From the NCBI RefSeq assembly GCF_003591005.1, contig NZ_QYYD01000024.1:1-64000 (forward strand): a stretch of DNA of 64,000 bases. Direction: 5' to 3'. A model generated the notes under the pieces. The model searched no databases and was not told the origin of the DNA. It saw only the letters and a list, made by a program, of their open reading frames with translations. Position numbers and translations under genes: made by a program. Source of the stretch: Rhodopseudomonas palustris. GTDB taxonomy: Bacteria > Pseudomonadota > Alphaproteobacteria > Rhizobiales > Xanthobacteraceae. Below, one piece after another: positions 33,804 to 52,488 of the stretch (its first letter is position 1; the number at the start of each line of letters is the position of its first letter).

Positions 33804-33858
33804 GTTTCATTTGTTGAAACATCGTTTTAATTTTGGCAACACTGCGTAGGCCTGTCAA
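33804..33858 (-). promoter_or_regulatory. fbiC promoter with F420-regulon palindrome
   Basis: On the minus strand: TTGACA (33858-33853), 17-bp spacer, CAAAAT (33835-33830), then the palindrome GTTTCA-N5-TGAAAC at 33804-33820. The palindrome extends to perfect 10-bp arms (33800-33824). It would overlap the transcription start, the position of a repressor site, 72 bp ahead of the fbiC ATG. The rest of the 236-bp gap to 33968 shows nothing else. Confidence 0.75.
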
Positions 33859-33968
33859 ATCACGCGGCTCCTGTGGGGCTCAATTCGCGGTCCTTCCTGA
33901 ACCGCGGAATCTGTCGCACGGCGCTTTAGGCAACGGGACGCGCCCCGCCTCGACACGCACGCTCTCGA

Positions 33969-35222
33969 TTACTGATATCGAGCCAAGGACAGATCGGACG
34001 CGTCGATCTCCGGCTGCATCCCACTCACCAGATCGGCGACAATTCGGCCCGACCCGCACGCCATCGTCCATCCGAGCGTGCCGTGGCCGGAATTGATGTA
34101 GAGGTTGCGATGCTGTGTGGCGCCGATAATCGGCGTGCCGTCGGGTGTCATCGGCCGGAGGCCGGTCCAGAACGAAGCGCTCGCCTGATCGCCCGCACCG
34201 CCGAACAGGTCTTCGACGGAGTGCTGCAGCGTGTCCCGCCTGGCTTGCGGAAGATCGAAATTGAAGCCGGCGATCTCGGCCATGCCGCCGACGCGAATGC
34301 GGGATCCCAGCCGCGTAATGGCCACCTTGTAGGTCTCGTCCATGACAGTCGACACCGGCGCGCGGGCCTCGTCGACGATCGGCACGGTGATCGAATAACC
34401 CTTGAGCGGATAGACCGGGACGCGCAGCCCGAGCGGCGCCAGCAAAGCCGGCGTATAGCTGCCCAGAGCGGCGACGAACACATCGGCACGCTCGTCACCC
34501 TGATCGGTGCCAACAGAGGTCACCGCGCCGGAGTCCACACGCAAGCCGCGGATGTCGACATTGAAGCGAAACTCGACGCCGATCCGCTCGCATAGATCTT
34601 TCAGCGCATTGGTGAACTTGAAGCAGTCGCCGGTCTCATCGTTGGGCAGCCGCAATCCCCCGGCGATCTTGTGCTCCACCCACCGCAGCCCCGGCTCGGC
34701 GGCCACGCAGCCCGCAGCATCCAGCAATTCGAATTCGACGCCGTCGTTCCTCAATACTGCGATGTCCTTGCCGACCGCATCGAGCTGTTCGGCCGTCCGA
34801 AACACCTGCAGCGTGCCAAGGGTGCGGTGATCGTAAGACACCCCCGTTTCTCGGCGCAGTTCGATCAGGCAGTCCCTGCTGTATTCGGCGAGCCGCACCA
34901 TGCGCGCTTTGTTGAGCGCGTAGCGCGCCGCCGTGCAATTGCGCAGCATCGCGGCGAGCCATCGCCACATGGCCGGATCTGCGGTCGGCCGGATCACCAA
35001 CGGCGCGTGCTTGGCAAACAGCCATTTCAACGCCTTCAGCGGAATCCCCGGCGCCGCCCAGGGCGACGCATAGCCTGGCGAAATCTCACCGGCATTCGCG
35101 TAGCTGGTTTCGAGCGCGGGTGCCTCGCGTCGGTCGAGCACAACGACCTGATGGCCGGCCTTGGCCAGGTAATAAGCGGACGTCACCCCGATCACGCCCG
35201 CGCCGAGCACAACCACCTTCAT
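33969..35222 (-). CDS. dadA: D-amino acid dehydrogenase small subunit
   Basis: FAD-dependent DAO-family dehydrogenase of 417 aa. The Rossmann motif [21 protein letters not shown] is at the very N-terminus; [20 protein letters not shown] and [15 protein letters not shown] are DadA hallmarks. It oxidises D-amino acids (D-alanine best) to 2-oxo acids plus ammonia, passing electrons to the respiratory chain. ATG 35222 gives the standard family start. It is divergent from an Lrp-type regulator, the arrangement usual for dadA, and is probably activated by it. No F420-regulon palindrome occurs in this gap, so it seems to be an unrelated insertion between fbiC and the hydroxylase operon. Confidence 0.92.
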
Positions 35223-35465
35223 TGGATCCCGGTGCTTTCTTGATTGGTCTCGGCCAGCGGCAGATCGCTGCAGAACCTGCCCGCGGCCGTCACCTCCACA
35301 TTGCCCATTCCGTCTGCTCGTTCGCTCATGCAATTCGCCCGAACGACCTCGTTCACCCTAGCGCAATTGTCGCGCAATAGGCCGCCGAACGGCGCCGCTT
35401 TGCGTTGAACGATCGCGATCGACGCAATAATCTGCCGCCATTCGCAATTTCGTTTGGAACTCCGA

Positions 35466-35972
35466 ATGGATGAGATCGACCGCAATCTGGTGCGACTGCT
35501 CCGCCTCGATGCGCGGATGACCAATGCGAAGCTGGCCGAGGAAGTCGGGCTATCACCGTCGGCGTGCCTGAGACGTATCCGTCAGCTCGAGCAGAACGGG
35601 ACGATCCGCGGCTACACGGCGCTGGTCGGCCCGTCTCATCGCGAAGGAGCGCTGACCGTGATCATCAACATCTCACTGGAGCGGCAGACCGAGGATTATT
35701 TGAGCCGCTTCGAGCGGGCGATCCGCAAGTATCCCGAGATCCAGGAATGCTATCTGATGACCGGCGGTTCGGACTATCTGCTCCGCGTCGAGGTCGACAA
35801 TGCGGCCGAGTTCGAACGCATCCACACCGACATTCTGTCGACGCTCCCCGGCGTGTCGCGAATTCATTCCAGCTTTGCGATCCGCAACGCGCTGGCGGGA
35901 ACGAAGCAAGCCGGCCGCAAAGCCGACCGCGAGCCGCGCGGCGCACGACAACGGGCACCGCAGAAAAGCTGA
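35466..35972 (+). CDS. Lrp/AsnC family transcriptional regulator
   Basis: Regulator of 168 aa: N-terminal helix-turn-helix (MDEIDRNLVRLLRLDARMTNAKLAEEVGLSPSACLRRIRQLE) and C-terminal RAM ligand-binding domain (YLMTGGSDYLLRVEVDNAAEFE), then a basic tail of about 20 residues. The ATG at 35466 is preferred over the TTG at 35454, which adds four residues. Lrp/AsnC proteins bind amino acids and control the adjacent gene, so dadA across the 243-bp divergent gap is the likely target. Confidence 0.92.
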   Translation: MDEIDRNLVRLLRLDARMTNAKLAEEVGLSPSACLRRIRQLEQNGTIRGYTALVGPSHREGALTVIINISLERQTEDYLSRFERAIRKYPEIQECYLMTGGSDYLLRVEVDNAAEFERIHTDILSTLPGVSRIHSSFAIRNALAGTKQAGRKADREPRGARQRAPQKS

Positions 35973-36071
35973 GCGCCGGCGACCGATCCTGCCGGCCTTG
36001 ATCGTACTGCCGCCGATCCACGCGCGAGTCACGGCGCAGAGCGATCGGCAAGGTCCGGCGTGGACGAAGTC

Positions 36072-36704
36072 TTACGACTTGCCGAACACGCCTTTGATCT
36101 TCTGCCAGAGCAGGTTCCACATCAGCGCGCCCAGATTAAGCGACGGCGGCGGAGCAGCGGCCTGCAGTCGTTCGGCCGAAGGCGGCGTCGACGAGGACTG
36201 AGCTGGTGCCGACGACGGCAATTCCGCAGGCGGGACAGCGGCCGGCGCCGACGCTGAAGCGGCCAGCATCGCTTCGAGGTTGGTGGCGAACACCTTGGTG
36301 ATGCTGCCGGCGATCTCCTTGACGATGCCGGCGCGGCTGAATTGAGCCAGCGGTCCTGAAATCGAGTATTCCACCGAGAGATCGATCCGGGTCGCCGCAT
36401 CGCCGACGGCGTGAAGCTGATACTTGACCAGGGCCTTCACGCGCGTCGCGTTCTTGCCGTCTTTTCCAGCGCCGCTGATCGTGCCCGAATGCGTCGCCTC
36501 ATCGCGCACCACTTCGGCGTCACCGGCGAAGGCGGCCTTGATCGGCCCCAATTGAACCTTGAAGACGCCGGACGCCTTCTCGTTGCCGTCGACCTGCGTG
36601 ATCTCTGCGCCGGGGATACAGGACGCCGTCGCAGGCAGATCACCCAAGCCGCGCCACACCGTATCGAGAGTGCGGCCGACTTCGAAGGATTGATCGAGCT
36701 GCAT
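36072..36704 (-). CDS. CoxG/SRPBCC family protein
   Basis: Protein of 210 aa with an N-terminal SRPBCC domain (residues 1-150; MQLDQSFEVGRTLDTVWRGL, CIPGAEI) of the CoxG type, an Ala/Pro/Ser-rich linker of about 40 residues, and a short hydrophobic C-terminal stretch (LGALMWNLLWQKIKGVF) that may anchor it to the membrane. CoxG proteins accompany molybdenum hydroxylases; in CO dehydrogenase systems CoxG helps membrane attachment of the enzyme. It is the last gene of the eight-gene operon from 44966, 12 bp after the CoxS-type subunit. Confidence 0.87.
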   Translation of the reverse strand: MQLDQSFEVGRTLDTVWRGLGDLPATASCIPGAEITQVDGNEKASGVFKVQLGPIKAAFAGDAEVVRDEATHSGTISGAGKDGKNATRVKALVKYQLHAVGDAATRIDLSVEYSISGPLAQFSRAGIVKEIAGSITKVFATNLEAMLAASASAPAAVPPAELPSSAPAQSSSTPPSAERLQAAAPPPSLNLGALMWNLLWQKIKGVFGKS

Positions 36705-36716
36705 GAAACTGTCTCC

Positions 36717-37190
36717 TCACGCTTTCGCGCGATTGGCCGCGTAGATGTTTTCGACCGCCCGGATGATGCCTTGATAGCCGGTGCAGCGACACAGATTGCC
36801 GGACATTTCGCGGGCGATATCGGCGGGGTCGAGATCCGGAAAACGCGTCACCAGATCGTAGGCCGTCATCAGCATGCCGGGCGTGCAATAGCCACACTGC
36901 AAGGCGTGCTCTTTCGAGAACTCGCTTCGGAGCGCGTTCATCTGAGCGTCGTCGCCGAAGCCTTCGATGGTGCGGATATCGCGGCCATCGCAGGCCGCGG
37001 CGAGCGCGATACACGAGCGCGCCGACACGCCGTCGATATGCACCGTACAGGCGCCGCAGACGCCGTGTTCGCAGCCGACGTGGGTGCCGGTCAGATGCTG
37101 CTTCTCGCGGAGAAAATCGACCAGGGACAAGCGCGGCTCGACGCTGGCCTGCACGACCTCGCCGTTGATGGTGAGGGAGATCTCGATCAT
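36717..37190 (-). CDS. Molybdenum hydroxylase 2Fe-2S small subunit (CoxS type)
   Basis: Electron-transfer subunit of 157 aa with two [2Fe-2S] sites: a plant-ferredoxin-type cluster CEHGVCGAC followed by SCIAL, and the helical-bundle cluster QCGYC...CRCTG. This is the gamma subunit of xanthine-oxidase-family hydroxylases. ATG 37190 overlaps the CoxM-type stop (ATGA); the GTG at 37199 would add three residues and is less likely. It carries electrons from the molybdenum subunit to FAD. Confidence 0.93.
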   Translation of the reverse strand: MIEISLTINGEVVQASVEPRLSLVDFLREKQHLTGTHVGCEHGVCGACTVHIDGVSARSCIALAAACDGRDIRTIEGFGDDAQMNALRSEFSKEHALQCGYCTPGMLMTAYDLVTRFPDLDPADIAREMSGNLCRCTGYQGIIRAVENIYAANRAKA

Positions 37191-37999
37191 GCCAGGCACC
37201 CGATCTTCAAGGCACGCAGGATGGCCGCCGCGTGGAAATGAACATGCTGTCCTTCGACCCCGGGCGCCGCGTCACGCACCGCCTGACGTAGTCCCTCGAT
37301 GCTGAAGCTCGCTGGCCAATCGCCCGGATACAGCTCCACCGGCGGTGCCGACAGCGCGCCCGCGACAATGCGGCGATGACCCGACGCGGCGTCCGACACC
37401 ACGCAGCCGATTGCTTCGGCAAATTCGCCGACCTTGCGATTGTGCTTGTAGTAGCCGAACCGCATTGCGGGACCGAGCACCGGCACATCGATCCGAGCCA
37501 GCAACTCGCCCGGCTCCAGCGCAGTCGTGAAGCTCCCGAGCAGAAAGTCCGCGATCGGAAGCCGGCGCGTGCTTTGCGCTCCGACGAGATGAAGCTCGGC
37601 GCCCAGCGCCCGCAGGCAGGTCAACCAATCCGCCGCGGGATCGCAATGCGCGACGCTGCCGCCGATCGTGCCGCGATTGCGAACGCCGCGATAGGCGATG
37701 CCGCCCGCGACCTGACGCAGCAGATCGAACGTCGCTCCGGTGTGTGCCGAACGCTCGATTTGCGCGTGCGTGACCATCGCGCCGATCGAGATCACGCTCG
37801 GCGAGATATCGATGGTCGTCAGTTCGGCGATGCGCGAGATATCGACCACCGCTGTCGGCCGCACCAGGCGCATATTCAGCATCGGCACGAGCGATTGGCC
37901 GCCGGCCAGAACGCGCGCATCGCCGTCGTGATCGGCGAGCGCCTGCGCGGCCTCCGCCAGCGTGTTGGCGCGGATGAAATCGAAACTGATCGGCTTCAT
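37187..37999 (-). CDS. Molybdenum hydroxylase FAD-binding medium subunit (CoxM type)
   Basis: FAD subunit of 270 aa with the family motifs VLAGGQSLVPMLNMRL and RNRGTIGGSVAHCDPAADW, both of which contact FAD. It starts inside the CoxL-type stop (ATGA) and overlaps the CoxS-type start. With the large and small subunits it forms an alpha-beta-gamma hydroxylase that inserts a water-derived oxygen into an aldehyde or N-heteroaromatic ring. Confidence 0.93.
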   Translation of the reverse strand: MKPISFDFIRANTLAEAAQALADHDGDARVLAGGQSLVPMLNMRLVRPTAVVDISRIAELTTIDISPSVISIGAMVTHAQIERSAHTGATFDLLRQVAGGIAYRGVRNRGTIGGSVAHCDPAADWLTCLRALGAELHLVGAQSTRRLPIADFLLGSFTTALEPGELLARIDVPVLGPAMRFGYYKHNRKVGEFAEAIGCVVSDAASGHRRIVAGALSAPPVELYPGDWPASFSIEGLRQAVRDAAPGVEGQHVHFHAAAILRALKIGCLA

Positions 38000-40359
38000 G
38001 CTGCGCCTCGCGCGACGAAGCCGGCTTCCAATCCGACGGCGTCCAGCGCCGCCAAGATCCGCGACGGCGTCACCGGGACCTCCGCCACCTCCGCGCCGAA
38101 CGAGCGCAAGGCGTCATTGACCGCATTGACGATCGCGGCAGGCGGCGCGATCGCGCCACCCTCGCCCACCCCTTTGACGCCGAAACGCGTGAACGGCGAT
38201 GCGGTCTGGAAATTGAGCAGGCGAATGGTCGGCACGTCGCCGCAGCCCGGAACCAGATAGTCGGCCAGCGTCGAGGCCTGGGGCTGCCCCATCTCGTCGT
38301 AGCGCACCTCCTCGAATAGCGCGGTGCCGATGCCTTGAACGATGCCGCCCCAGATCTGGCCGTCGACGATCATCGGATTGACCTGGATGCCGCAATCATC
38401 GACGGCCACATAATCGCGTAGCTTGACGGTGGCGAAATCGCGATCGATCTCGAGCACACAGACGTGGCTCGAATAGGCGAATGCGCCGGAATCCTGCTGC
38501 GGACGATAGCCGCCGACGACTTCGAGGCCCGCGCTGTCGATGCCTTCCGGCAGCTCCGCCGGCTTGAAGTAATAGACGCGGGCGATTTCGGCGATCGTCA
38601 TCGATGCCGCGTCGGCGTGAAAGGCGCCGTCGCGGAACACCAGATCGTCCGGCGCGCGTTGCATCAGATGCGCAGCGGCGGCACGCAGCCGGACAATCAG
38701 CCGATCGCACGCATCGGCAATAGCGCCGCCGACCATCACCATGCCGCGCGACGCATAGGTGCCGGTGGAATAAGGCGTCAGCGCGGTATCGCCGTGGGTG
38801 ACCTGAATCTGATCGGTGTGGATGCCGAGAACCTGAGACGCGACCTGAGCGAACGACGTCTCCATGCCCTGCCCGTGCGACTGCACGCCGGTGCGGATAT
38901 CGACGCCGCCATCGGGCGTGATACGGACCGCGGCTTGCTCGTGGCCGGGCATCAGGCGCGTATTCATCCAGGCGAGCACGGACGTACTGATGCCGGTGTG
39001 TTCCGTATAGGTGGCGAACCCGACGCCGAGCAGCGAGCGGCCGTCGGCCAGGCGCTGCTGCTGCTCCTTGCGCAAGGCCGCGAGATCGATCGCGCCGAGC
39101 GCCGTCTCGAGGCATTTGGGGTAGTCGCCGCTGTCGTAGAGCTTTCCCGTCACCGACCGATACGGCATCAGCTCGACCGGAATTAGATTCTCGCGGCGGA
39201 CCTCGTGCGGCTCGCGGTTCACCGCGCGCGCCACCGCATCGACGATCAGCTCGGTCGCGAAACAGGCGCCGGGCCGGGCCACGGCGCGATAGGCCTGGAT
39301 CGGCGGCTTGTTGGTCGCGACGGTGCGCCCCGTGACCCGGTAGTTCTTGATTTGATACGGCCCCGGCAGGATGCCGGCCGCCTGGATCGCATCGAACGCG
39401 CAGGTGTGCGGCCAGATCGAATACGCACCGGCGTCCACAACAATGTCGGCGTCGAGTCCGAGCAAGCGCCCTTGCTCGTCCGCATAGGCCGTCATCGTGT
39501 AGATGTGCTCGCGCGAATTCGCTGCCGCCGTGAGATGCTCACGACGATCTTCCAGCCAGCGCACCGGGCGACGCAGTTTCATGGCGAGGAAGCCGAGGAT
39601 CAGTTCCTCGGGATGCAGGATGGCCTTGTAGCCGAAGCCGCCACCGACATCGGGAGCGATCACCCGGATTCGATTCTGGTCGAGATCGAGAAATTCCGAG
39701 AGCCCTGTGCGGATCAGATGCGGCGACTGGGTCGAGGAATAGACGATCAGCTGGCTGACACGCTCGTCCCACAGCGCGACGACGCCGCGTCCCTCGATCG
39801 GCACCATGGCCTGGCGCGCCAGCTTGAAGGTCCGCGTGACTTTGACCGGCGCCGCCTGACGGATCGGCTCGAAATCGTCGCCCTGCTGCAGACGGTGGAA
39901 GATGTTGTCCGGCAGGTCGGGATGCACCGCCGGCGCGCCGGGTTGCAGGGCCGCTTCGGCGGAGGTCAATGGATCGAGTTCGTCGAAGTCGAACATCACC
40001 CGCTCGGCGATGTCCTCGGCATCGGCGCGGTTCTTGCCCACGCACGCGGCGAGGATCTGGCCGACGAAATTGACCTTGTCCCGGGCCATCACCGGATAGG
40101 GCATTTTCTGATAGCCAGGGATCGTGGCCTCGGCGAGGATCGGACGGACCGCGTCGAGATCCGAACCGGCGAACACGCGGCTCCGGTCCGCATCCTCGAT
40201 GTCCGGCGCCTTCAAGATGGCATGCGCGACGGGACTGCGGACGAAGGCGACGTCGAGCATGCGCGGGAAAACCAGATCACCGATGAAGGTGCTTTGCCCA
40301 TGCAGATGACGCTTGTCTTCCTTCCGCGGAACGCTCGCGCCAATTCCTGTGGACCCCAT
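37996..40359 (-). CDS. Molybdenum hydroxylase large subunit (xanthine oxidase family)
   Basis: Molybdopterin subunit of 787 aa. It has APDVGGGFGYKAI for cofactor binding, IQAYRAVARPGA as the active-site loop, and GVKGVGEGGAIAPP with the catalytic Glu. True CO dehydrogenase (form I) has AYRCSFR with the Cu-binding Cys; this loop lacks that Cys and resembles form II (AYRGAGR), so it is not a CO dehydrogenase. The ATG at 40359 has GGGAGG 6 nt upstream; the frame is open to 40398, where an ATGA overlap with the LivF-type stop exists but no better ribosome-binding site. Location behind a transporter suggests that it hydroxylates the imported compound. Confidence 0.92.
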   Translation of the reverse strand: MGSTGIGASVPRKEDKRHLHGQSTFIGDLVFPRMLDVAFVRSPVAHAILKAPDIEDADRSRVFAGSDLDAVRPILAEATIPGYQKMPYPVMARDKVNFVGQILAACVGKNRADAEDIAERVMFDFDELDPLTSAEAALQPGAPAVHPDLPDNIFHRLQQGDDFEPIRQAAPVKVTRTFKLARQAMVPIEGRGVVALWDERVSQLIVYSSTQSPHLIRTGLSEFLDLDQNRIRVIAPDVGGGFGYKAILHPEELILGFLAMKLRRPVRWLEDRREHLTAAANSREHIYTMTAYADEQGRLLGLDADIVVDAGAYSIWPHTCAFDAIQAAGILPGPYQIKNYRVTGRTVATNKPPIQAYRAVARPGACFATELIVDAVARAVNREPHEVRRENLIPVELMPYRSVTGKLYDSGDYPKCLETALGAIDLAALRKEQQQRLADGRSLLGVGFATYTEHTGISTSVLAWMNTRLMPGHEQAAVRITPDGGVDIRTGVQSHGQGMETSFAQVASQVLGIHTDQIQVTHGDTALTPYSTGTYASRGMVMVGGAIADACDRLIVRLRAAAAHLMQRAPDDLVFRDGAFHADAASMTIAEIARVYYFKPAELPEGIDSAGLEVVGGYRPQQDSGAFAYSSHVCVLEIDRDFATVKLRDYVAVDDCGIQVNPMIVDGQIWGGIVQGIGTALFEEVRYDEMGQPQASTLADYLVPGCGDVPTIRLLNFQTASPFTRFGVKGVGEGGAIAPPAAIVNAVNDALRSFGAEVAEVPVTPSRILAALDAVGLEAGFVARGAA

Positions 40360-40394
40360 CTCGGACCTCCCGTATCCCCGACTTGCCGCGGGGC

Positions 40395-41108
40395 TCATCC
40401 GCCCAGATACGCGGCTTTGATGCCTTCGTCATCCAGCAGCGCCGAGGACGACATCTGCTTGGAGACGGTGCCGCGCTCGATCACATAGGCCAGCCGGCTG
40501 TATTCGAGCGCCATGAAAGCGTTCTGTTCGACAAGCAGGATCGAAACGCCCTGCTCATTGATGCTCCGGAGTTTTTCAAACACTTCCTCGACCAGATTTG
40601 GCGCCAGCCCCAATGACGGCTCGTCGAGCAGCATCAGCTTGGGCCGGGCCATGATGGCGCGGCCGATCGCGAGCATCTGCTGCTGGCCTCCCGACAGAGA
40701 CCACCCCAGCTGCTTGCGGCGCTCGGCCAGAATGGGAAACAGCTCGAAAACGCGGTCGAGATCTTCGGCAGCGGACTGACCGCGGCGGATCCACGGCGTC
40801 GTCGCCACGCGCAGATTGTCGTAGACGCTCAAACCCGGAAACACGCCTCGGCCTTCCGGCACCATGGAGATGCCGAGCTTGGCGATTTCGGGCGTCTCCC
40901 GCCCCAAGATCTCGACGCCGTCGAACTTGATCGAGCCCTGCGCGCGCAGCAATCCCATGATGGCGCGCAGCGTCGTCGTCTTGCCGGCTCCGTTGGCGCC
41001 GATCAACGTCACCATCTCGCCCTGGTTCACGGCAAGGTCGATGCCGTGCAGGACTTCGACGCCGTCCGCATAGGACGCGCTGACGGAATTCACCTCAAGC
41101 AAAGGCAT
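40395..41108 (-). CDS. HAAT ABC transporter ATPase, LivF type
   Basis: Cytoplasmic ATPase of 237 aa with Walker A GANGAGKTT, SMVPEGRGVF, signature WSLSGGQQQM and Walker B LLDEPSLGLAP. Its start overlaps the end of the fused LivM-LivG gene by 14 bp. Part of the eight-gene operon 44966 to 36072, just ahead of the molybdenum hydroxylase genes. Confidence 0.93.
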   Translation of the reverse strand: MPLLEVNSVSASYADGVEVLHGIDLAVNQGEMVTLIGANGAGKTTTLRAIMGLLRAQGSIKFDGVEILGRETPEIAKLGISMVPEGRGVFPGLSVYDNLRVATTPWIRRGQSAAEDLDRVFELFPILAERRKQLGWSLSGGQQQMLAIGRAIMARPKLMLLDEPSLGLAPNLVEEVFEKLRSINEQGVSILLVEQNAFMALEYSRLAYVIERGTVSKQMSSSALLDDEGIKAAYLGG

Positions 41109-42912
41109 TCTTCACGTCCTTGGCGGCGGCACGCTTTCCCAGATAGGCGCCGATGACTTCCGGATCCCGCTGAATCTGCGCCGGGGTGCCGTCGGCGATC
41201 TTCTTGCCGAAATTCAGCACCGTGATGCTGTCGGCAATCTTCATGACGAACGGCATGTTGTGCTCGACGATCAGCACCGTCAGGCCGATCGCCTTCATCT
41301 TGCGGACCTGCACCACCAGCCGTTCCACTTCCGTGGGGTTCATGCCTGCCGCCGGCTCGTCGAGCAGGATCATGCGCGGCCGCAGCGCCAGGGCGCGGGC
41401 GATCTCCACCATCCGCTGCTGCTCGTGCGGCAGTGCGCTGACCTGGATGTCGCGCATCGACCACAGGCCGACGAAGCGCAGCGCCGCTTCCGCCGTTGCG
41501 CGCAGTTCAGCCTCTTCTTGCGCGGCTACCGAACTGGCGATCATCACCGAAGACCAGCTCGCAGGCTTTGCGCCGCGGCAGCCAACCAGCACGTTGTCCA
41601 TCACCGACAGCGAATGAAACGACCGCAGATTCTGAAAGGTTCGCGCGATGCCCGCTTTGGCGATGTTCCAGGACGACGTCGCCGGCAGCGTCTTGCCGGC
41701 AAATCGCATCACGCCCTCCTGACGCTGGTACACGCCGGAGACAAGGTTGATGAAGGTCGACTTGCCGGCGCCGTTCGGGCCGATCAGCGCATGGATCGTC
41801 CCAGCGCGCACCTGCATCGACAGATCGTTGATCGCCACCAGGCCGCCGAACCGGCAAGTCAGGTTCTCGATCGACAGCATCACATCAGTGCTCTGCTCTG
41901 CACCGCCCCGCGGGCGCAGCAGATCGATCGCCGGATTGTCGATCGCCAACTCTTCAATCGCGCCGTTCTCGCCGAGCTGCGGCACCTTCACCGCCTTGCG
42001 GCGACGCAGGAACCCGAGAATGCCGTAAGGCAGGAACACCACCGCGAACGCCACGCCCGCGCCGTAGATGACCTGATAGTACTCCTTCGAGATCCTCAGC
42101 GCCTCGGGCAGCATGGTGATGAAGCCCGCGCCCAGAACCGGCCCGAAGGTGGTGCCCATCCCGCCGAGCAGCACCATGCTCAGCACCTGAGCCGTCACCT
42201 CGAACGTGAAGGCGTCCGGGCTGATGAAGCCGACCAGATGCGCGTAAAGCGAGCCGGCACAGCCCGCAATCACAGAGCTGATCACGAAGGCCAGGATCTT
42301 GATGCGCGTGACGTTGACGCCGGTCGTGCCGGCGGCCATTTCGGAGTCGCGCAGCGCCGCAAAGCTGCGGCCGTATTTCGATTTCTCCGTCCGGCGGGCG
42401 AGCACTAGGACGAGGCCGAGAAAGGCTAAGCCGAGATAAAAGAACCTCTGATCGTTATCGAACTGGAAGCCGAACAGCGACGGCGCCGGGATCGCCGCGA
42501 TGCCGTCGCCGCCGTGGGTGACTTCCTGCCAATTGTACAGCACGATGCGGATGATTTCGCCGAACCCGAGCGTGCCAAAAGCGAGATAATGCCCCTTCAG
42601 ACGCAGCGCCGGAACGCCGATGATCAGCCCGGCCAGACCGGCCATTACGCCGGCGAGCACGAAGACGGGCCAGAACATCGCGCCGGATCCGGCGTGGGTG
42701 AGAATGCCGGCGGTGTAGGCGCCGATGCCGAAGAAGCCGGCATGGCCGAGCGAGATCTGGCCGGCGTAGCCCAGCACGAAGTTCAGGCTGATGGCCAGGA
42801 TGGCGTAAATGATGCCGACATTGACCAGCCGCATCAGATAATCGTTAGGAACGATAGCGGGCACAATCAGCAGCGCCGCGCAGACGCCAGGGATGAGCAG
42901 CTTACGCATCAT
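41095..42912 (-). CDS. Fused LivM permease-LivG ATPase of HAAT ABC transporter
   Basis: Single polypeptide of 605 aa. Residues 1 to about 310 form the LivM permease (ISLNFVLGYAGQISLGHAGFFGIGAY, LLGGMGTTFGPVLGAG); a linker of about 35 residues follows; residues 345-600 form the LivG ATPase (Walker A GPNGAGKST, signature SALPHEQQRMVEIARALA, Walker B LLDEPAAGMNP). The stretch around 41900-42000 reads through without a stop, so it is a genuine fusion. In the other three transporters of this window the two parts are separate genes. The start overlaps the LivH stop by one base. Confidence 0.92.
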   Translation of the reverse strand: MMRKLLIPGVCAALLIVPAIVPNDYLMRLVNVGIIYAILAISLNFVLGYAGQISLGHAGFFGIGAYTAGILTHAGSGAMFWPVFVLAGVMAGLAGLIIGVPALRLKGHYLAFGTLGFGEIIRIVLYNWQEVTHGGDGIAAIPAPSLFGFQFDNDQRFFYLGLAFLGLVLVLARRTEKSKYGRSFAALRDSEMAAGTTGVNVTRIKILAFVISSVIAGCAGSLYAHLVGFISPDAFTFEVTAQVLSMVLLGGMGTTFGPVLGAGFITMLPEALRISKEYYQVIYGAGVAFAVVFLPYGILGFLRRRKAVKVPQLGENGAIEELAIDNPAIDLLRPRGGAEQSTDVMLSIENLTCRFGGLVAINDLSMQVRAGTIHALIGPNGAGKSTFINLVSGVYQRQEGVMRFAGKTLPATSSWNIAKAGIARTFQNLRSFHSLSVMDNVLVGCRGAKPASWSSVMIASSVAAQEEAELRATAEAALRFVGLWSMRDIQVSALPHEQQRMVEIARALALRPRMILLDEPAAGMNPTEVERLVVQVRKMKAIGLTVLIVEHNMPFVMKIADSITVLNFGKKIADGTPAQIQRDPEVIGAYLGKRAAAKDVKNAFA

Positions 42913-43772: not shown

Positions 43773-43814
43773 GATCCACAGTCCGTTTCTGAGAGACCGA
43801 CGAAATTGTGCGAA

Positions 43815-44966
43815 TTACTTGCGGGCTACGACCTTGACGTCGCCGTTCGGCTGGATCTGCATGATCACCGAACTGTGCCAGAGATTGCCCTCTTCGTCCG
43901 CCTTGTAGGTACCGAGGATGCCGTCGTAGGACTTCGTGGCCATACCTTCGCGGATCGCTTCACGATCGGCGCCCTTTTCCTTCATCACAGAGATCAGCAT
44001 ACCGACCGCGTCGTAATCCTGCGCGATGTACATGTCGGGCGCGAACCCGGCCTTCTTCTTGTAGGCCTCGACGAAGGTCTTCACGGCCGGACGATCGTTG
44101 ATTGTCGGCAGCACGTCGGGCGCCTGGCAGTACTTGCCCGCCATGTCGGACGCGGACACGAGATCGCGCAGGAACGCCTTGCACAGGCTGGCCGAGGCGA
44201 CGTAGTCCGCCTTGCTTTCGAGCTGGTTGAACTTCTTCACCACCAGGGCTTCGTCGACTGGATAACCCTGCGTGTAAACGACATCGGCATCGGCGCTCTT
44301 CATCGCCATGACCTGAGCGGTCATATCCTTGTCGGTCGGCTGATAGGACGCGACCGCGACCGGCTCGACGCCGAGCTTCTTGAGTTCCTGAGTCAGGAAG
44401 TCACGACCGGAATAACCCCATTCGGCCATGACGTGCATGATGCCGACCTTGGTCTTCTTCAGGTCCTTGACGATGAAGTTGGCCAGCACGACCTTGTCGG
44501 CCTCGTCGTGCGAACTGTCGCGGAAGAAGTATTTGGCACCTTGCTGGGTGACGCGGCGCGTGCTCGGCCCGGCGATCAGCGGCACCTTGGCCTTCTCGGT
44601 CATCGGCATCATCGCCAGAATCTGCGTGCCGAGACCCGGGCCGATGATGGCAACCGGCTGCGACTGAAGCACCTTGTTGAGCGCATTGATGGCCGTGGTG
44701 TTCGACGCCTGGGTGTCCTCGACGACGAGTTCGATCTCACGCCCGCCGACGCCGCCGGCCTTGTTGGCCTCGTCGACCGCCAGCGAGATCGCGTCGAGAT
44801 TTGGCTTGCCGTAGGGGGCGAGCACGCCGGTCAGCGGCAGCACGACGCCGACGACGATCTTCGGCTTGGCCTGCGCGAACGCGTTCGGCGCCGCGAGAGA
44901 CGATCCGACCAACGCAACCGCCGCCAGCGCGGCCAGCACGGAGAAGCGCCGACTCAGGTGTTTCAT
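43815..44966 (-). CDS. HAAT-type ABC transporter substrate-binding protein
   Basis: Periplasmic binding protein of 383 aa, signal peptide about residues 1-32 (AFAQA cleavage region), then KIVVGVVLPLTGVLAPYGKPN. GGGAG lies upstream of the ATG. It is the first gene of an operon that continues with LivH, fused LivM-LivG, LivF and the molybdenum hydroxylase subunits. Its promoter (45102-45130) is among the best sigma-70 matches in the window and is overlapped by the F420-regulon palindrome. The ligand is probably the hydroxylase substrate; identity unknown. Confidence 0.93.
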   Translation of the reverse strand: MKHLSRRFSVLAALAAVALVGSSLAAPNAFAQAKPKIVVGVVLPLTGVLAPYGKPNLDAISLAVDEANKAGGVGGREIELVVEDTQASNTTAINALNKVLQSQPVAIIGPGLGTQILAMMPMTEKAKVPLIAGPSTRRVTQQGAKYFFRDSSHDEADKVVLANFIVKDLKKTKVGIMHVMAEWGYSGRDFLTQELKKLGVEPVAVASYQPTDKDMTAQVMAMKSADADVVYTQGYPVDEALVVKKFNQLESKADYVASASLCKAFLRDLVSASDMAGKYCQAPDVLPTINDRPAVKTFVEAYKKKAGFAPDMYIAQDYDAVGMLISVMKEKGADREAIREGMATKSYDGILGTYKADEEGNLWHSSVIMQIQPNGDVKVVARK

Positions 44967-45078
44967 TTTTCAACTCCCGTTCAGTAGTGACAAGATCGCT
45001 GCTTAGTCGACGCGCACGCATGAAAGCGTTTTTGCGAGCGTATAGCGAAGCGTTTCTCAAGAAAAGAATAAAAACGTT

Positions 45079-45130
45079 GTTTCTTTCAGAGAAACAGCGT
45101 TATTATCCTCCCGCGGCTGACCACGGTCAA
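45079..45130 (-). promoter_or_regulatory. Promoter and palindrome of the transporter-hydroxylase operon
   Basis: Minus strand: TTGACC (45130-45125), 17-bp spacer, GATAAT (45107-45102), then palindrome GTTTCT-N5-AGAAAC at 45079-45095, which starts at about the predicted +1. It lies 112 bp upstream of the binding-protein ATG and 250 bp upstream of the divergent IclR gene. The rest of the 379-bp gap is without recognisable features. Confidence 0.72.
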
Positions 45131-45345: not shown

Positions 45346-46131
45346 ATGAAAACGCCATCAGAACCAGGAAATCAGTCGCTTCTGCGCGGCCTCAGGATCC
45401 TCGAGGCTTATACGTCCGACAAACAGGCTTGGGGCGTTCGCGAACTGGGGCGGGAGCTTGAGATCAATGCCGCCACGACCTATCGGCTGATCTCCGCCCT
45501 CGCCTCGCGCGGCTACCTCGAGCAGAATCCCGAGACCCAAAAATATCATCTCGGCCCGAAGGTCGTCCAACTCGCGGCCAGCTACTCGGTCCGTAACTCG
45601 CTGATCGAAGTCGGGCTGCGCGTCTTCGCCAAGTACGAGCAGAAATTTCCCTACAATTTCTACATCGGGGTGATGAGCCATCACGAAGTGATCTATGTGG
45701 CCGTCCACGAATCGCGCGGTCCACTGAAGATCACTACCGAACCAGGTCAGAGCGTCAGCATCTACGGTTCGGCGCTCGGCAAGCTGCTGCTCGCCAATGA
45801 GAGCGATGAGTTCATCAAGAAACTGGTGGCCGGCAATCCGGTCAAGAAGATCACGCCGCTGACCGTCGCCGACGAAAAGGAGCTGATGCGGCAAATCCGG
45901 CAGATCCGCAAACTCGGCTACGCCATTAATCGCGGCGAGATCTATGCCGAGATCGCCTCCGTGGCGACGGCGATCCGAGGGCCCGATGGCTCGGTGATCG
46001 CCGGCGTCTCGTTGAGCTTTCCGATGCTCTATATGGAGACCGGCAAGATCGCGATCGAGGACGTCATCGAGCTGGCCTTGCAGGTCGGCGAGGAAATCTC
46101 CTCGATGAACCGGCGCACCGTGATCCGTTAG
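45346..46131 (+). CDS. IclR family transcriptional regulator
   Basis: Regulator of 261 aa. N-terminal winged helix-turn-helix (GVRELGRELEINAATTYRLISALASRGYLEQNPETQKYHLG) and C-terminal IclR effector domain (SIYGSALGKLLLANE, GYAINRGEIYAEIASVATAIRGPDGSVIAGVSLSFP). ATG 45346 is chosen over TTG 45334. It sits centrally among the F420 units and is divergent from the transporter-hydroxylase operon. IclR proteins such as KdgR bind palindromes with TGAAA/TTTCA half-sites, which matches the GTTTCA-N5-TGAAAC sites here. It is therefore the best candidate for the regulon's control protein. Confidence 0.93.
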   Translation: MKTPSEPGNQSLLRGLRILEAYTSDKQAWGVRELGRELEINAATTYRLISALASRGYLEQNPETQKYHLGPKVVQLAASYSVRNSLIEVGLRVFAKYEQKFPYNFYIGVMSHHEVIYVAVHESRGPLKITTEPGQSVSIYGSALGKLLLANESDEFIKKLVAGNPVKKITPLTVADEKELMRQIRQIRKLGYAINRGEIYAEIASVATAIRGPDGSVIAGVSLSFPMLYMETGKIAIEDVIELALQVGEEISSMNRRTVIR

Positions 46132-46179
46132 AGCGGTTCAGCGATTGATTGAAGCGAAGCTGTCGCCTCACCTGCGGAG

Positions 46180-46300
46180 TCGTCATCCTGAGGTGCGCGC
46201 GTAGCGCGCCGCGAAGGATGCGGCCAAGGTGTTCGCGGCTCATCCTTCGAGGCCCGCAGCGCCGCGCACAGCGCGGCACAGCGGGCACCTCAGGATGACG
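46180..46300. repeat. REP palindrome (CGTCATCCTGAGGTGC type)
   Basis: Large imperfect inverted repeat beginning CGTCATCCTGAGGTGCGCG and ending GGGCACCTCAGGATGACG, with nested GGATG/CATCC arms. It fills the gap between the convergent IclR and M24 genes. A third REP family in this window, also well known from Bradyrhizobium relatives. Confidence 0.8.
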
Positions 46301-46355
46301 GCGGCGTTTCTATCAGAGGCAGACATGCTCTAGACCACGGTGCGCCGTCCGGTGA

Positions 46356-47552
46356 TCAAAGGATCACGAGTTCCTTCGGCGTCCCCTTGGTGAGCAGACG
46401 ATTGGGCTGCCCGTCGCCGACCACGAAGGGGTTTTCGACGTGCACGGCGCCGACGCCGAATTCGTAGTACGGCGTTTCGATATTGATCACCATGCCGGCC
46501 TCGATCTCGATGTCGTTGCCGGGGGCGAGAATCGGCTGCTCATAGACCTCGGCGCCGATGCAATGGCCGACGTGATGCCGACGATAGCGGGGCTCGCCGT
46601 TGTCGCGCACCGCCTGCACCGTCAGATCGAACAGCTGGCCGCCCGTCATGCCGGGCCGCGCCCGGTCGATGCCGGCCTGCTCACCGGCCACCATGGCGCG
46701 ATACAGCTCGCGCACCCGCTGCGACGGTTCGCCAAAGCTGAAGGTTCGCGCCAGGTCCGACCAGTAGCCCTGATAGGTCGCACCGACGTCGAACCAGATG
46801 GTGTCGCCGGCCGCGAGCGGCGTCCGATTTGACAGCACCTGACCGCTGACGCTGTTGCGGCCGAACTTGATCATCGTGAACTCGGCACGCCCTCCCTGCG
46901 ACGCGACCGAGCGGTTGAACTCCAGATACAGCTCCTGCTCGGTCACGCCGGCGCGGGCGATCGAGACCGCGGCCGCGATTGCCTGTTCGGTGATCAGCGC
47001 TGCTGAAGCGATGCGCCGGATTTCCTCTTCGGTCTTCACCCGGCGCACCCATGCGAACGCCGAAGCAGCAGCGACGAAATTGGTCGAGGGCAACGCCTGG
47101 CGCAGCCCGGCCTCGACGCCAATCCGCAGCCCATTCTCATCGATCCCGATCCGCTTCCCGGCAAGGCCGATGCGCTTGATCGCCGCGGCGAGCGCTGCGC
47201 CGCCGTTCGGCTCGGCGGGCTGATTGGTGAGCTGCTGCAGCCGCTGTTCGTGATCTGGGAGCGCGCCGTCGCCGTAGTTCTCACGATAGAAGGTCCCGAA
47301 GTTGACGGCGTCGGCGATCTCGGCGGATGCGTCGAGCACCTGATCGATCTCGCCCGTCGACGACACCAAAGTGACCCGGTCGGGGGCGTCGCGGGTGATG
47401 ACGGCGTAGCATTGGCCGAAATACGGATGAAGATGCAGCGAGACGCTGCGAATGCCGGTCAGATATTGCACGTTCTCGGCAGTCGCAGCGATCAGACCGT
47501 CCAGATCGTCGTCGGCCATTCTTCGCTTCAGCCGTTCGATATTCGCAAGCAC
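46356..47552 (-). CDS. M24 family metallopeptidase / creatinase-fold hydrolase
   Basis: Pita-bread-fold enzyme of 398 aa: N-terminal creatinase-like domain (residues 1 to about 150), then the catalytic domain with the five dimetal ligands in place (WFDVGATYQGYWSDLARTF, RRHHVGHCIG, NIETPYYE, VHVENPF). With all metal residues kept it is more like an Xaa-Pro dipeptidase or prolidase than metal-free creatinase. Monocistronic, divergent from the LLM operon. The F420-regulon palindrome ends 13 bp before its ATG, so it belongs to the regulon and probably hydrolyses a C-N bond of a pathway intermediate; this is inference. Confidence 0.88.
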   Translation of the reverse strand: MLANIERLKRRMADDDLDGLIAATAENVQYLTGIRSVSLHLHPYFGQCYAVITRDAPDRVTLVSSTGEIDQVLDASAEIADAVNFGTFYRENYGDGALPDHEQRLQQLTNQPAEPNGGAALAAAIKRIGLAGKRIGIDENGLRIGVEAGLRQALPSTNFVAAASAFAWVRRVKTEEEIRRIASAALITEQAIAAAVSIARAGVTEQELYLEFNRSVASQGGRAEFTMIKFGRNSVSGQVLSNRTPLAAGDTIWFDVGATYQGYWSDLARTFSFGEPSQRVRELYRAMVAGEQAGIDRARPGMTGGQLFDLTVQAVRDNGEPRYRRHHVGHCIGAEVYEQPILAPGNDIEIEAGMVINIETPYYEFGVGAVHVENPFVVGDGQPNRLLTKGTPKELVIL

Positions 47553-47565
47553 GTCGACGCTCCGC

Positions 47566-47624
47566 GTTTTATTAGTTGAAACAGTGGTTCAGCTTAAAGT
47601 TACATGGCGGGCCAAGACCGTCAA
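47566..47624 (-). promoter_or_regulatory. M24 gene promoter with F420-regulon palindrome
   Basis: Minus strand: TTGACG (47624-47619) and, 42 bp from its start, the palindrome GTTTCA-N5-TAAAAC at 47566-47582 (one mismatch from perfect symmetry). The -10 box is weak (TAACTT or AACTTT near 47597-47602). The site lies immediately upstream of the ATG at 47552. Confidence 0.6.
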
Positions 47625-47685
47625 TCGCGCGGCGCGGTCTGCCGCGGATTTCCTCAACCGCTTACTCTATCGGCACGTGGTAAGC

Positions 47686-47743
47686 TTGACGGCACAGAAC
47701 TCAACTGGTTCATTGTAGTCAACGGCGTTTCATTAAATGAAAC
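47686..47743 (+). promoter_or_regulatory. LLM operon promoter with F420-regulon palindrome
   Basis: TTGACGGCAC at 47686-47695, a weak -10 (TTCATT, 47709-47714), and the perfect palindrome GTTTCATT-A-AATGAAAC at 47727-47743, starting 41 bp from the -35. The ten bases TTGACGGCAC and the 41-bp offset are identical at the transporter promoter 52431-52488. Confidence 0.72.
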
Positions 47744-47771
47744 ATAACCTGGACTTGCGCAGGAGACGTTT

Positions 47772-48785: not shown

Positions 48786-48789
48786 GATC

Positions 48790-49452
48790 ATGACCGCACC
48801 CACCCTCCCCGTTCTGGCGATCATCGGCGGCACCGGCGACCTCGGCTCCGGGCTGGCTCGCACCTGGAGCCGGGCCGGCTACACCGTGGTACTCGGCTCG
48901 CGCTCCACTGAGCGCGCCGAGGAGATTGCGGCGCAGCTGAGGTCCGACGGCTTCGCCAGCGTCAGCGGCCTCAGCAATGTCGACGCGGCCGCGCGCGGCG
49001 ACATCATCGTGATCGCCGTGCCGTTCTCGAACTATGAAGCCAGCCTCGCCGAGATCAAGGATGCGGCGAAGACCAAGATCGTGGTCACGGCCGTCGTCCC
49101 GCTCGTGCCGCCCAAAGTCTCGGTGGTTCAGCTGCCGGCGGCGGGATCGGCGGGCGTGATCGCGCAGTCGCTGCTCGACCCGTCGACCCGCGTGGTCGGG
49201 GCCTTTCACAACGTCGGCTCGCAGAAGCTCCACGCCGGCGGCAAGGCGGATTGCGACGTGCTGGTGTTCGGCGACGATGCCGAGGCCCGTGCCGAAGTCA
49301 TCAAACTCGCCGACGCCGTGAGCAATCGCGGCATCGACGGCGGTTCGCTGGCGAATTCGGCCGCCGCCGAAGCGCTCACCTCGGTCCTGATCTGGATCAA
49401 TCGCAAGTACAAAGTGAAAGGCGCCGGCATCACCATCTCCGGGCTGGCGTAA
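48790..49452 (+). CDS. npdG: F420-dependent NADP reductase (NpdG/Fno-like)
   Basis: Rossmann-fold protein of 220 aa with the dinucleotide motif IIGGTGDLGSGLA (residues 10-22) and the GSRS segment that binds the NADP phosphate, followed by CDVLVFGDDAEA and KVKGAGITISG near the end, as in archaeal Fno. It transfers hydride between NADPH and F420, here probably making F420H2 for the LLM enzymes. It starts 5 bp after the first LLM gene. A 2-dehydropantoate reductase-like family is the main alternative, but the order of motifs fits Fno. Confidence 0.88.
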   Translation: MTAPTLPVLAIIGGTGDLGSGLARTWSRAGYTVVLGSRSTERAEEIAAQLRSDGFASVSGLSNVDAAARGDIIVIAVPFSNYEASLAEIKDAAKTKIVVTAVVPLVPPKVSVVQLPAAGSAGVIAQSLLDPSTRVVGAFHNVGSQKLHAGGKADCDVLVFGDDAEARAEVIKLADAVSNRGIDGGSLANSAAAEALTSVLIWINRKYKVKGAGITISGLA

Positions 49453-49462
49453 CGGGATCGAA

Positions 49463-49942
49463 ATGACCACCATCGACCAACGACTGAACGCGCTCGGCGT
49501 CGAGCTGCCCACCCCCGCCGCTCCCCTCGCCAACTACGTCCCGGCCGTCATCCTCGGCAGCCAGCTGATCATCTCGGGGCAATTGTGCCTCGATGCCTCC
49601 GGCAAGCTCGGCGACGCGCATCGCGGCAAGCTCGGCGAGGCGGTGTCGCTCGAGGCTGGGCAGGCTGCCGCGCGGCTGTGCGCCATCAACGTGCTGGCGC
49701 AGGCCAAGGCCGCGCTGGGCGGCGATCTCGGGCGGATCAAGCGTTGCGCCCGCCTCGGCGGCTTCATCAATGTCGTTCCGACCTTCGCGTCCGTGCCGCA
49801 GGTCATGAACGGCGCCTCGGACTTCATGGTCGAGGTGCTCGGCGATCTCGGCCGTCACGCGCGCTCCACCATCGGCGTGGCTCAGCTTCCGCTCGATTGC
49901 GCGGTGGAAGTCGAAGCGATGTTCGAAATCGCCGCAACCTGA
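49463..49942 (+). CDS. RidA-family protein
   Basis: Protein of 159 aa, a longer RidA branch than the 134-aa protein at 11574. Recognisable blocks are ANYVPAVILGSQLIISGQLC, GFINVVPTFASVPQVMNGASDF and ARSTIGVAQLPLDCAVEVEAMFEI, where the Arg of RSTIG takes the place of the RidA catalytic Arg. It probably hydrolyses an enamine/imine intermediate; the PLP enzyme encoded next would create just such products. It lies 10 bp after npdG. Confidence 0.87.
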   Translation: MTTIDQRLNALGVELPTPAAPLANYVPAVILGSQLIISGQLCLDASGKLGDAHRGKLGEAVSLEAGQAAARLCAINVLAQAKAALGGDLGRIKRCARLGGFINVVPTFASVPQVMNGASDFMVEVLGDLGRHARSTIGVAQLPLDCAVEVEAMFEIAAT

Positions 49943-49967
49943 TCGCTTTCGCTGGAGCATCGATCCC

Positions 49968-51224: not shown

Positions 51225-51296
51225 GCCCGGGCGTGTAGTCCAGTCAACAACACTGCAGCCATTTCGAGCTGTCGATCAAAACCGCAGAGAGAGCAC

Positions 51297-52268
51297 ATGC
51301 GCAGCCGGTTCGGAATCTCCCTGGAAGGCAACGAAGCGCTCGACGAACTCCATCACATGGTCAGCCTCGCGGACGAGAGCGGCGCCTCCACCATCTGGCT
51401 CGCGTCGCATCTGTTCCAGCGTGAGCCGATTGCCACCGCCGCCATGGCTCTCGGCCGTTCGAAATCCGTCAAGATCGCCCTGATGGCGATGAGTCCCTAT
51501 TCGGTTCACCCGGTCTACGCCACGATGGCGGCGGCCACGTTGAACGAGCAATTCCCGGGGCGCGTGATCCTGTGTTTCGGCGCCGGCGCTCCGCGCGACC
51601 TCGAAGCCGCCGGCCTCAAGGCGGATCATCCGCTCGGCACCCTGCGTGAATCGATCGACATCGCCCGGTCTTTGCTGAGCGGCGAAGTCGTCGCGCACGA
51701 CGGCGAACGCTTCAAGGTGAACGGGCGCCGCCTGTCGTTCGGTGCGCAGCAGGTGCCGATCTTCCTCGCTGCGTCCGGGCCGCAGATGCTCGAACTCGCC
51801 GGCGCTGCGGCGGATGGCGTGCTGCTGAGCGCCGCCACCTCGCCGGCCTTCCTGCGCTGGACGTTGGAGCTGGTGCGCAAGGGCGAGACGAAAGCGGGAC
51901 GGACCATCAAGAAGAGCGCGCTGGTTTACGTCTCGGCCGACCGCGACGAGACAGCGGCCCGTGATCGGCTGCGCCGCACCCTCGGCTTCATTCTGCGCGG
52001 CCAGCACCACGCCCGCAATCTGGAGATGGCGGGCACGACGCTCGATCAGGCCGCCCTGGCGGCCGCCTATGCGCGCGAGGATTGGGAGGCCGTTGCGCGC
52101 CTGGTCGACGACAACGTGGTGATGCGGCACAGCGCCAGCGGCACCCCCGAGCAGGTCGCGGCAGCGTTTCAAGCCTACCAAGACGTCGGCCTCGACGAAA
52201 TCGTCGCCGCAGGGATGACGACCTCCGCCCAGCTCTCGGATGTGTTCAGTTCGGTTTCAGGCAAGTGA
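51297..52268 (+). CDS. LLM-class (F420-type) oxidoreductase
   Basis: Luciferase-like barrel protein of 323 aa, only distantly like the one at 47772. Blocks such as STIWLASHLFQREP, VKIALMAMSPYSVHPVYATMAAATLNEQFPGRVILCFGAG and VPIFLAASGPQMLELAGAAADG recall methylene-tetrahydromethanopterin reductase-like and other F420-dependent LLM enzymes. Last gene of the operon, 72 bp after the PLP enzyme. Two different LLM enzymes in one operon suggest two successive hydride transfers or two substrates. Confidence 0.89.
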   Translation: MRSRFGISLEGNEALDELHHMVSLADESGASTIWLASHLFQREPIATAAMALGRSKSVKIALMAMSPYSVHPVYATMAAATLNEQFPGRVILCFGAGAPRDLEAAGLKADHPLGTLRESIDIARSLLSGEVVAHDGERFKVNGRRLSFGAQQVPIFLAASGPQMLELAGAAADGVLLSAATSPAFLRWTLELVRKGETKAGRTIKKSALVYVSADRDETAARDRLRRTLGFILRGQHHARNLEMAGTTLDQAALAAAYAREDWEAVARLVDDNVVMRHSASGTPEQVAAAFQAYQDVGLDEIVAAGMTTSAQLSDVFSSVSGK

Positions 52269-52430
52269 TAGTCCCGCCGCGACATGCGCGCCGGCAATCG
52301 CCGATTGTCGTGCGGCTCTACTAAGCGCCGCAGTTGCCGATGCAGCGTCGTCTGCGCGCACAGTTGCAGGATTGACCGACAAAGGCGCATGCCGTGCCGT
52401 GGGAATGAGCAGCGCGCTGGCATTGTTAAA

Positions 52431-52488
52431 TTGACGGCACGATAAGGCTCCCCTAAGCTGACAGGAACGGTGTTCTTTTTATCGGAAC
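52431..52488 (+). promoter_or_regulatory. Transporter operon promoter with F420-regulon palindrome
   Basis: TTGACGGCAC at 52431-52440, 17-bp spacer after TTGACG, TAAGCT (52454-52459), then GTTC-N9-GAAC at 52472-52488. The palindrome is weaker than the others but stands 41 bp from the start of the -35, exactly as at 47686-47743. It precedes the LivH-type start at 52514 by 25 bp. Nothing else is seen in the 245-bp gap. Confidence 0.65.

Follow-up and report, generated by a model that had tools for sequence, protein, structure and literature searches.

The window analysed here, the first 64,000 nucleotides (positions 1 to 64,000, forward strand) of contig NZ_QYYD01000024.1 from the Rhodopseudomonas palustris assembly GCF_003591005.1, carries a gene for an IclR-family regulator, IclR-A, among genes for two transporters, a molybdenum hydroxylase, an M24 hydrolase, LLM-class proteins and the F420-related proteins FbiC and NpdG. 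A sequence-only reading had proposed that five palindromes of the form GTTTCA-N5-TGAAAC, or close variants of it, place five F420-linked transcription units under this regulator. Our analysis supports the link between the operator family and the iclR gene at four promoters, that of fbiC among them, and the window probably represents an IclR-controlled, F420-dependent catabolic regulon (module A), in which IclR-A would act on the operators of four units, fbiC included. The regulator, fbiC and the operators are located as follows.

31357..33732, minus strand: fbiC (CofGH, FO synthase), 791 amino acids; NF006687 1167.5 bits, cut-off 1018; genus-type lineage
33804..33820: primary fbiC operator, centre of a perfect 25-bp palindrome (33800-33824); 0 mismatches; matrix score 32.2, rank 2
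33824..33840: weaker additional element resembling an operator, 20 bp upstream of the primary operator when read in the fbiC direction; matrix score 21.4, rank 5; spacing of tandem IclR sites
45079..45095: operator of the transporter/molybdenum-hydroxylase operon, at the sbp1 promoter; 2 mismatches; matrix score 22.6, rank 4; orthologous sites in genomes G054, G256 and G301
45346..46131, plus strand: IclR-A, proposed repressor, 261 amino acids; PF09339 and PF01614 above cut-off; orthologues of 67-80% in four genomes
47566..47582: M24 operator; 1 mismatch; matrix score 29.3, rank 3; conserved
47727..47743: operator of LLM1-npdG-rid; 0 mismatches; matrix score 32.5, rank 1; conserved

All five palindromes lie where they had first been read, and four of them fit the proposed form: 33804 (GTTTCATTTGTTGAAAC) and 47727 (GTTTCATTAAATGAAAC) are exact matches, 47566 (GTTTTATTAGTTGAAAC) has one mismatch and 45079 (GTTTCTTTCAGAGAAAC) two. 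The fifth, at 52472 (GTTCTTTTTATCGGAAC), has five mismatches and is no close variant. Far from being common genome-wide, the outcome that would have spoken against shared control, the exact motif occurs at two places in the whole genome (5,624,772 bases), both in the window, and a reversed-pattern control at none. With at most one mismatch there are seven places, three of them in the window; of the four off-cluster sites, three fall inside open reading frames of at least 200 amino acids (matrix scores 3.1, -0.3 and 7.6), and the fourth, GTTTCTGAAAGTGAAAC at 106639-106655 of contig C55 of the same genome, is intergenic, scores 14.8, lies distant from F420 genes and is a possible further target. 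Since the genome holds 88 places with at most two mismatches versus 61 for the reversed-pattern control, loose matching yields mostly noise; with three mismatches allowed the window contains 13 matches versus 9.79 expected, a number reached by 17 of 100 shuffles and thus no excess over chance, and looser matching was dropped as a route to more targets. When symmetry was scored over the ten possible base pairs at distances 3-12 from the centre, for all window positions, the fbiC site proved the sole position with ten of ten, and the sbp1 site has nine.

A 25-bp matrix, trained on 11 sites of relatives (15 with those of the window; 33824 and 52472 excluded) that were chosen after the consensus had been seen, was run over 137,329 positions, comprising the window, the 20-kb rest of its contig and 53 kb of C55. 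The relatives-only version ranks 47727, 33804, 47566 and 45079 as first to fourth (32.5-22.6), followed by 33824 (21.4), 52472 (16.5) and position 42881 of C55 (14.6). On leaving out one genome at a time, all 15 sites were top-ranked in five regions of 54-64 kb with scores of 22.0-37.5, the best score outside the listed elements being 12.2 (33824 and 52472 excepted); with related genomes and orthologous sites, this is cross-validation and no replication.

At a threshold of E 1e-40 or better, IclR-A orthologues were found in five of the 391 genomes of the family sample (this genome; G054, 80%; G256, 75%; G301, 76%; G188, 67%), in three of 397 in the order sample (this genome, G188 and G574, the last at 42%), in one of 385 in the class sample (this genome), in two of 29 in the genus of G256, and in none of 15 genus mates. 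The order of the transporter operon, iclR, M24 and LLM1-npdG-rid is kept in G054 and G256, and in G301 as far as its contig, which begins inside sbp1, reaches; all three genomes have operator sites at the sbp1, M24 and LLM1 promoters, the LLM1 site of G054 with three mismatches. Among gap-free intergenic columns, 20 of 34 are invariant inside the M24 and LLM1 sites versus 27 of 167 outside (five genomes), and 13 of 17 inside the sbp1 site versus 46 of 195 outside (four genomes). Whole-genome matches to GTTTYAN5TRAAAC number one in G054, two in G256, one in G301 and two in G188, and all six lie beside iclR; G574, the control with the distant IclR, has one match, on another contig. Reversed-pattern controls gave 0, 0, 0, 2 and 0 matches in G054, G256, G301, G188 and G574. 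A tblastn search of the G188 region around iclR with 20 window proteins recovered, besides iclR, just M24 fragments and weak short matches, and this decayed locus (contig C1, 5813164-5814880), with an intact-looking iclR, a broken M24 and LLM1 not found, still holds two operator sites 164 bp apart beside iclR. In G301, LLM1 and npdG are present, and fbiC and cofD were not found in an assembly that is 92% complete and in which the cluster contig is cut. Beside the 42% IclR of G574 lie pieces of a cofD-like gene (contig C35, 27050-27500), so that an IclR as distant as this one may also accompany F420 genes. Searches for LLM1 on plasmids at E 1e-60, with LLM1 as the sole query, and for repeats common to both edges of the module-A block at E 0.01, gave no match.

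The promoter geometry is as had been claimed: TTGAC starts 38, 35, 42, 41 and 41 bp upstream of the fbiC, sbp1, M24, LLM1 and livH2 sites, livH2 being the gene behind the fifth palindrome. TTGAC(A/C/G) is common, with 89 occurrences on both strands of the window; -10-like hexamers read by eye (CAAAAT, GATAAT, TAACTT, TTCATT and TAAGCT) follow the boxes by 16-17 bp, and the palindromes start 6-14 bp past these hexamers, which supports a position of the four operators just downstream of the predicted -10. The ten bases TTGACGGCAC shared by the LLM1 and livH2 promoters are real and occur in the window at 47686 and 52431 only. Because the orthologous promoters read differently, with TTGACTGACA (G054) or TTGACGAAAA (G256, G301) at LLM1 and TTGACGCGCC or TTGACGCGGC at livH2, this identity lacks conservation and looks accidental.

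IclR-A belongs to the IclR family by its domains PF09339 (45.4 bits, cut-off 22) and PF01614 (98.1 bits, cut-off 24), and stays under the curated NCBIfam cut-offs for KdgR (108.5 versus 275 bits), BhcR (131.4 versus 350) and PcaR/PcaU (122.8 versus 284.75). Its presumptive operators resemble the GTT-11-AAC subgroup of IclR group 1, for which a 17-bp consensus GTTYCRYW3RYGRAAC is given (Suvorova and Gelfand, 2021, PMC8222616): the window sites are likewise 17-bp GTTYC...GRAAC palindromes at promoters, except that the GTTTT-type variants at M24 are off by one base. The same survey reports tandem IclR sites for 94 orthologous groups, many but not all of them, at spacings of 18-22 bp, which it attributes to tetramers. 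The 20-bp pair at fbiC (33824, score 21.4) matches this spacing; at the remaining window sites a second element is weak or missing. The main text of that survey mentions neither F420 nor luciferase. The analogy with KdgR drawn by the sequence-only reading did not hold. KdgR shares the family and the TGAAA and TTTCA half-sites, but the KdgR motif in the survey's table (RWWGAAACGNCGTTTCAKKA) and the group 2 consensus TGRAACAN1-2TGTTYCA (PMC8222616) have these half-sites in the opposite order to GTTTCA...TGAAAC of the window, and a KdgR-type operator is rejected on this ground. In the intergenic region upstream of iclR in the window, the sole good match is 45079, at the divergent sbp1 promoter.

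The fbiC gene is attached to this operator set in two different ways. The molybdenum-hydroxylase genes are followed, on their own strand, by cofC and fbiC in G054 and by cofE, cofD, cofC and fbiC in G256, so that fbiC is the distal gene of an operator-controlled operon in both relatives; in G256 all gaps from sbp1 to fbiC are at most 28 bp. These operon copies have no good site of their own (best matches with five and four mismatches). The window fbiC, preceded by its own palindrome, is of another lineage: it is 60% identical to the operon fbiC of G054 and G256 and 87-89% to the fbiC genes of G001, G002, G009 and G013 and to a second copy on C55, and these six group at 100/99 in a tree of 13 rows. 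Thus fbiC seems to have been pulled into a conserved IclR operator set through two layouts in different genomes, and the placing of two lineages under what would be the same regulator, by separate layouts, suggests selection for the link. Each of G054 (contig C7) and G256 (contig C1) has three fbiC genes, most with cofC nearby; in G256 cofD is single-copy and cofC, like fbiC, has three copies.

The fifth site and the transporter behind it have a different history.

52472..52488: diverged palindrome ahead of the second transporter and of module-B ancestry, regulon membership doubtful; 5 mismatches; matrix score 16.5, rank 6; homologous to module-B livH2 operators
52514..57125, plus strand: second transporter (livH2, livM2, livG2, livF2, sbp2) of module-B type; family profiles for all but livF2; permeases 92-97% in G001, G002 and G013

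In module B, found in the genus mates G001, G002 and G013, fbiC is divergent from a transporter resembling the second one of the window (permeases 92-97%, LivG 92%, livF2 73-75%, substrate-binding protein 93%), followed by an LLM pair (64-65% and 74-75%) and the gene of another regulator, IclR-B. Like module A, it combines an IclR with F420 synthesis, LLM genes, a Liv transporter and palindromes at fbiC and livH2; unlike it, IclR-B is 32% identical to IclR-A and the operators are variants such as GTTCTCTTTATCGAAAC. IclR-B occurs at 99-100% in three of the 15 genus mates (G001, G002, G013) and is absent from this genome, where the best match is 54%. Window DNA matches module B at about 31258-33714 (85%) and, in two pieces, from about 52370 to 57128 (89-91%); in module B about 370 bp separate the fbiC end from the livH2 end, and the window has the module-A block in this place. 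On the fbiC side the match to module B ends at 33705-33714 and that to C55 at 33745. Neither reaches the fbiC operator, so that, compared with those copies, the promoter region of fbiC is new; on the livH2 side the match to module B takes in the promoter, and 52472 is therefore inherited. Its homologues, GTTCTCTTTATCGAAAC (G002, G013) and GTTCTGTTTATCGAAAC (G001), score 22.4, 20.2 and 19.0. By this comparison the fifth palindrome stems from another F420 module, whose own IclR this genome lacks, and its place in the regulon is doubtful. The alternative that all five units form one regulon, IclR-A having captured the second transporter after the loss of IclR-B, would suit the rank of 52472 (sixth among the 137,329 positions), its promoter position, which is that of the other sites, the absence of IclR-B and the retention of the transporter in the same gene block. 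It is the less probable version, since the site, with its five mismatches, scores below its homologues and has thus drifted from the motif of module A, is similar to GTTCTTTTAATCGGAAC, found close to IclR-B in G002, and could answer instead to IclR-C or IclR-D, two regulators encoded on C55. The proposal that IclR-A represses five units accordingly shrinks to four units and one doubtful one.

For these four units, chance is a very improbable explanation: window matches come near chance when three mismatches are allowed, but the whole-genome rarity, the conservation and the cross-genome ranks all speak against it. That a regulator encoded elsewhere binds the palindromes, with IclR-A having a different target, would agree with the lack of a good site ahead of iclR in the relatives; it is improbable given that the motif is of IclR type and that the sites adjoin iclR in all four other genomes with IclR-A, even where most of the locus has decayed. 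Marginally easier to entertain, yet still unlikely, is that IclR-A binds the sites and activates, or does both depending on ligand. Some IclR-family proteins, such as PcaU, are activators, but each site comes after the predicted -10, judged from boxes read by eye, and a protein bound at such a position blocks polymerase. Repression of four units by IclR-A is thus the reading we prefer, and several observations weigh against it. It draws on related genomes, so that its cross-checks are not independent; the matrix scan covers 137 kb, whole genomes having been searched by the consensus pattern only; and in G188 the control matches equal the real ones in number (two). The M24 and LLM1 sites have moderate symmetry, six of ten pairs each and below the seven of livH2, so symmetry alone does not single out all sites. 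An intergenic site scoring 14.8, that at C55 106639, lies elsewhere in the genome, and no good site for autoregulation precedes iclR in the four relatives. Lastly, the genome has two fbiC genes, and its single cofD and only cofC over the cut-off are both on C55 with a cofE homologue (48%), outside the regulon. The claim of catabolic control over a cofactor-synthesis gene draws support from the palindrome at fbiC and from the other fbiC genes in the operons of relatives, and is qualified by the second fbiC and the cofC, cofD and cofE genes on C55, a contig from which the exact motif is absent.

The remaining genes of module A suggest which chemistry the regulon might serve.

36072..36704, minus strand: CoxG-like protein; PF06240 57.0 bits, cut-off 22.2
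36717..37199, minus strand: molybdenum hydroxylase [2Fe-2S] subunit
37187..37999, minus strand: molybdenum hydroxylase FAD subunit
37996..40398, minus strand: molybdenum hydroxylase large subunit; among solved structures closest to quinoline 2-oxidoreductase (1t3q_B, 512.8 bits)
40395..44966, minus strand: first transporter (LivF, LivM-LivG fusion, LivH, substrate-binding protein sbp1); same gene order in G054 and G256
46356..47552, minus strand: M24 hydrolase (creatinase/prolidase type); PF00557, PF01321
47772..48785, plus strand: LLM1, predicted F420-dependent LLM-class oxidoreductase; TIGR03619 194.1 bits, cut-off 166.9; 91.7% in G054, G256 and G301
48790..49452, plus strand: npdG, NADPH-dependent F420 reductase; TIGR01915 177.1 bits, cut-off 149.8
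49463..49942, plus strand: Rid-like protein (rid); PF14588 96.5 bits
49968..51224, plus strand: pyridoxal phosphate (PLP) enzyme, threonine-synthase-like; PF00291; under the NCBIfam threonine synthase cut-offs
51297..52268, plus strand: LLM2, Mer-like LLM protein; PF00296; under all NCBIfam cut-offs

LLM1 is predicted to be F420-dependent from its match to TIGR03619. For the molybdenum hydroxylase, an assignment as Mo-Cu CO dehydrogenase was rejected: the curated cut-offs for that enzyme were missed, and the large subunit scores 512.8 bits with quinoline 2-oxidoreductase versus 459.3 with CO dehydrogenase. AYXCSFR, the large-subunit motif of aerobic Mo-Cu CO dehydrogenase, was looked for in the large subunit and is absent. 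These gene families suggest a pathway that would act on an N-heterocyclic compound or a related one. At 28975-31180, genes for a LigB-type dioxygenase and an amidohydrolase adjoin the 3' end of fbiC and could belong either to another aromatic pathway or to that of module A; a D-amino acid dehydrogenase-like gene lies between fbiC and module A at 33969-35333, with a 60% relative near the G054 cluster.

In the proposed mechanism, for which we infer IclR-A as binder, repression, inducer and substrate alike, IclR-A (45346-46131) would bind the 17-bp palindromes GTTTYA-N5-TRAAAC just downstream of the -10 at four units: the transporter with the quinoline-oxidoreductase-like molybdenum hydroxylase, the M24 hydrolase, LLM1-npdG-rid, and fbiC, where the second element 20 bp upstream might let a tetramer cover the -10 too. 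As long as the substrate, perhaps an N-heterocyclic or aromatic compound, is absent, these units would be repressed; an inducer would free IclR-A, and uptake, catabolism, F420 reduction (NpdG) and FO synthesis (FbiC) would rise together. The second transporter is an inherited unit, which IclR-A may have captured or left outside.

The closest precedent is NpdR with the npd genes of Rhodococcus opacus HL PM-1, involved in 2,4,6-trinitrophenol utilisation, where an IclR-family regulator is likewise combined with an F420-dependent catabolic pathway; the npd genes include npdG and genes for hydride transferases. The window resembles it in gene content, with an iclR beside predicted F420-dependent catabolic genes and npdG, and an operator at LLM1-npdG; NpdR differs in coming from an actinobacterium and in its nitroaromatic substrate. 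The NpdR regulon is not known to include an F420-synthesis gene. The NpdR motif tabulated in PMC8222616, GTTCMRYATMRTGAWS, begins with GTT. A complete F420 pathway has been described in forest-soil Rhizobiales, with nothing on its regulation (PMC5794936). Among open-licence papers on F420 and IclR, as judged from titles and abstract openings, none dealt with regulation of F420 genes in Proteobacteria, and nothing among the matches listed described this regulon, a set of papers from which absence from print is not established.

Further modules of this kind seem to exist. Contig C55 holds two more iclR genes, C and D (about 50% to IclR-B), which lie among paralogous LLM, M24, molybdenum-hydroxylase, npdG and F420 synthesis genes (195001-248401), with palindromes before both M24 genes. 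Before paralogous M24 genes there are palindrome pairs 20 bp apart on C55 and in G001, G002, G013 and G009, in the last at one M24; the other M24 genes of C55 and G009 each have a single palindrome. These palindromes were taken from the best eight matches per region, some with low scores (3.5-9.5). A de novo palindrome search in C55 was swamped by G+C-rich matches. Together with the three fbiC genes each in G054 and G256, iclR C and D and the M24 palindromes suggest a family of IclR-run F420 modules, operators having been tested in depth in module A.

The analysis points to a regulator with its operators and to a candidate chemistry, molybdenum-enzyme hydroxylation combined with F420H2-dependent reduction. 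The regulator of an F420 pathway seemingly also governs fbiC for a rare cofactor, which suggests that the cofactor may be made on demand; a substrate-inducible regulon with fbiC would give a concrete, testable reason, as F420 should rise alongside the catabolic enzymes when the inducer is present. More tentatively, and rather as a conjecture than as our expectation, F420 in the Alphaproteobacteria considered here might be no housekeeping cofactor at all. There would then be several paralogous catabolic modules, each with its own IclR and GTTYY-N7-RRAAC-type operators, and the synthesis genes (fbiC and cofC; in one species fbiC-cofC-cofD-cofE) would be repeated substrate-inducible copies in these modules, moving between them under new regulators, as the window fbiC seems to have done. 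If true, this would explain the mere traces of F420 in laboratory Alphaproteobacteria.

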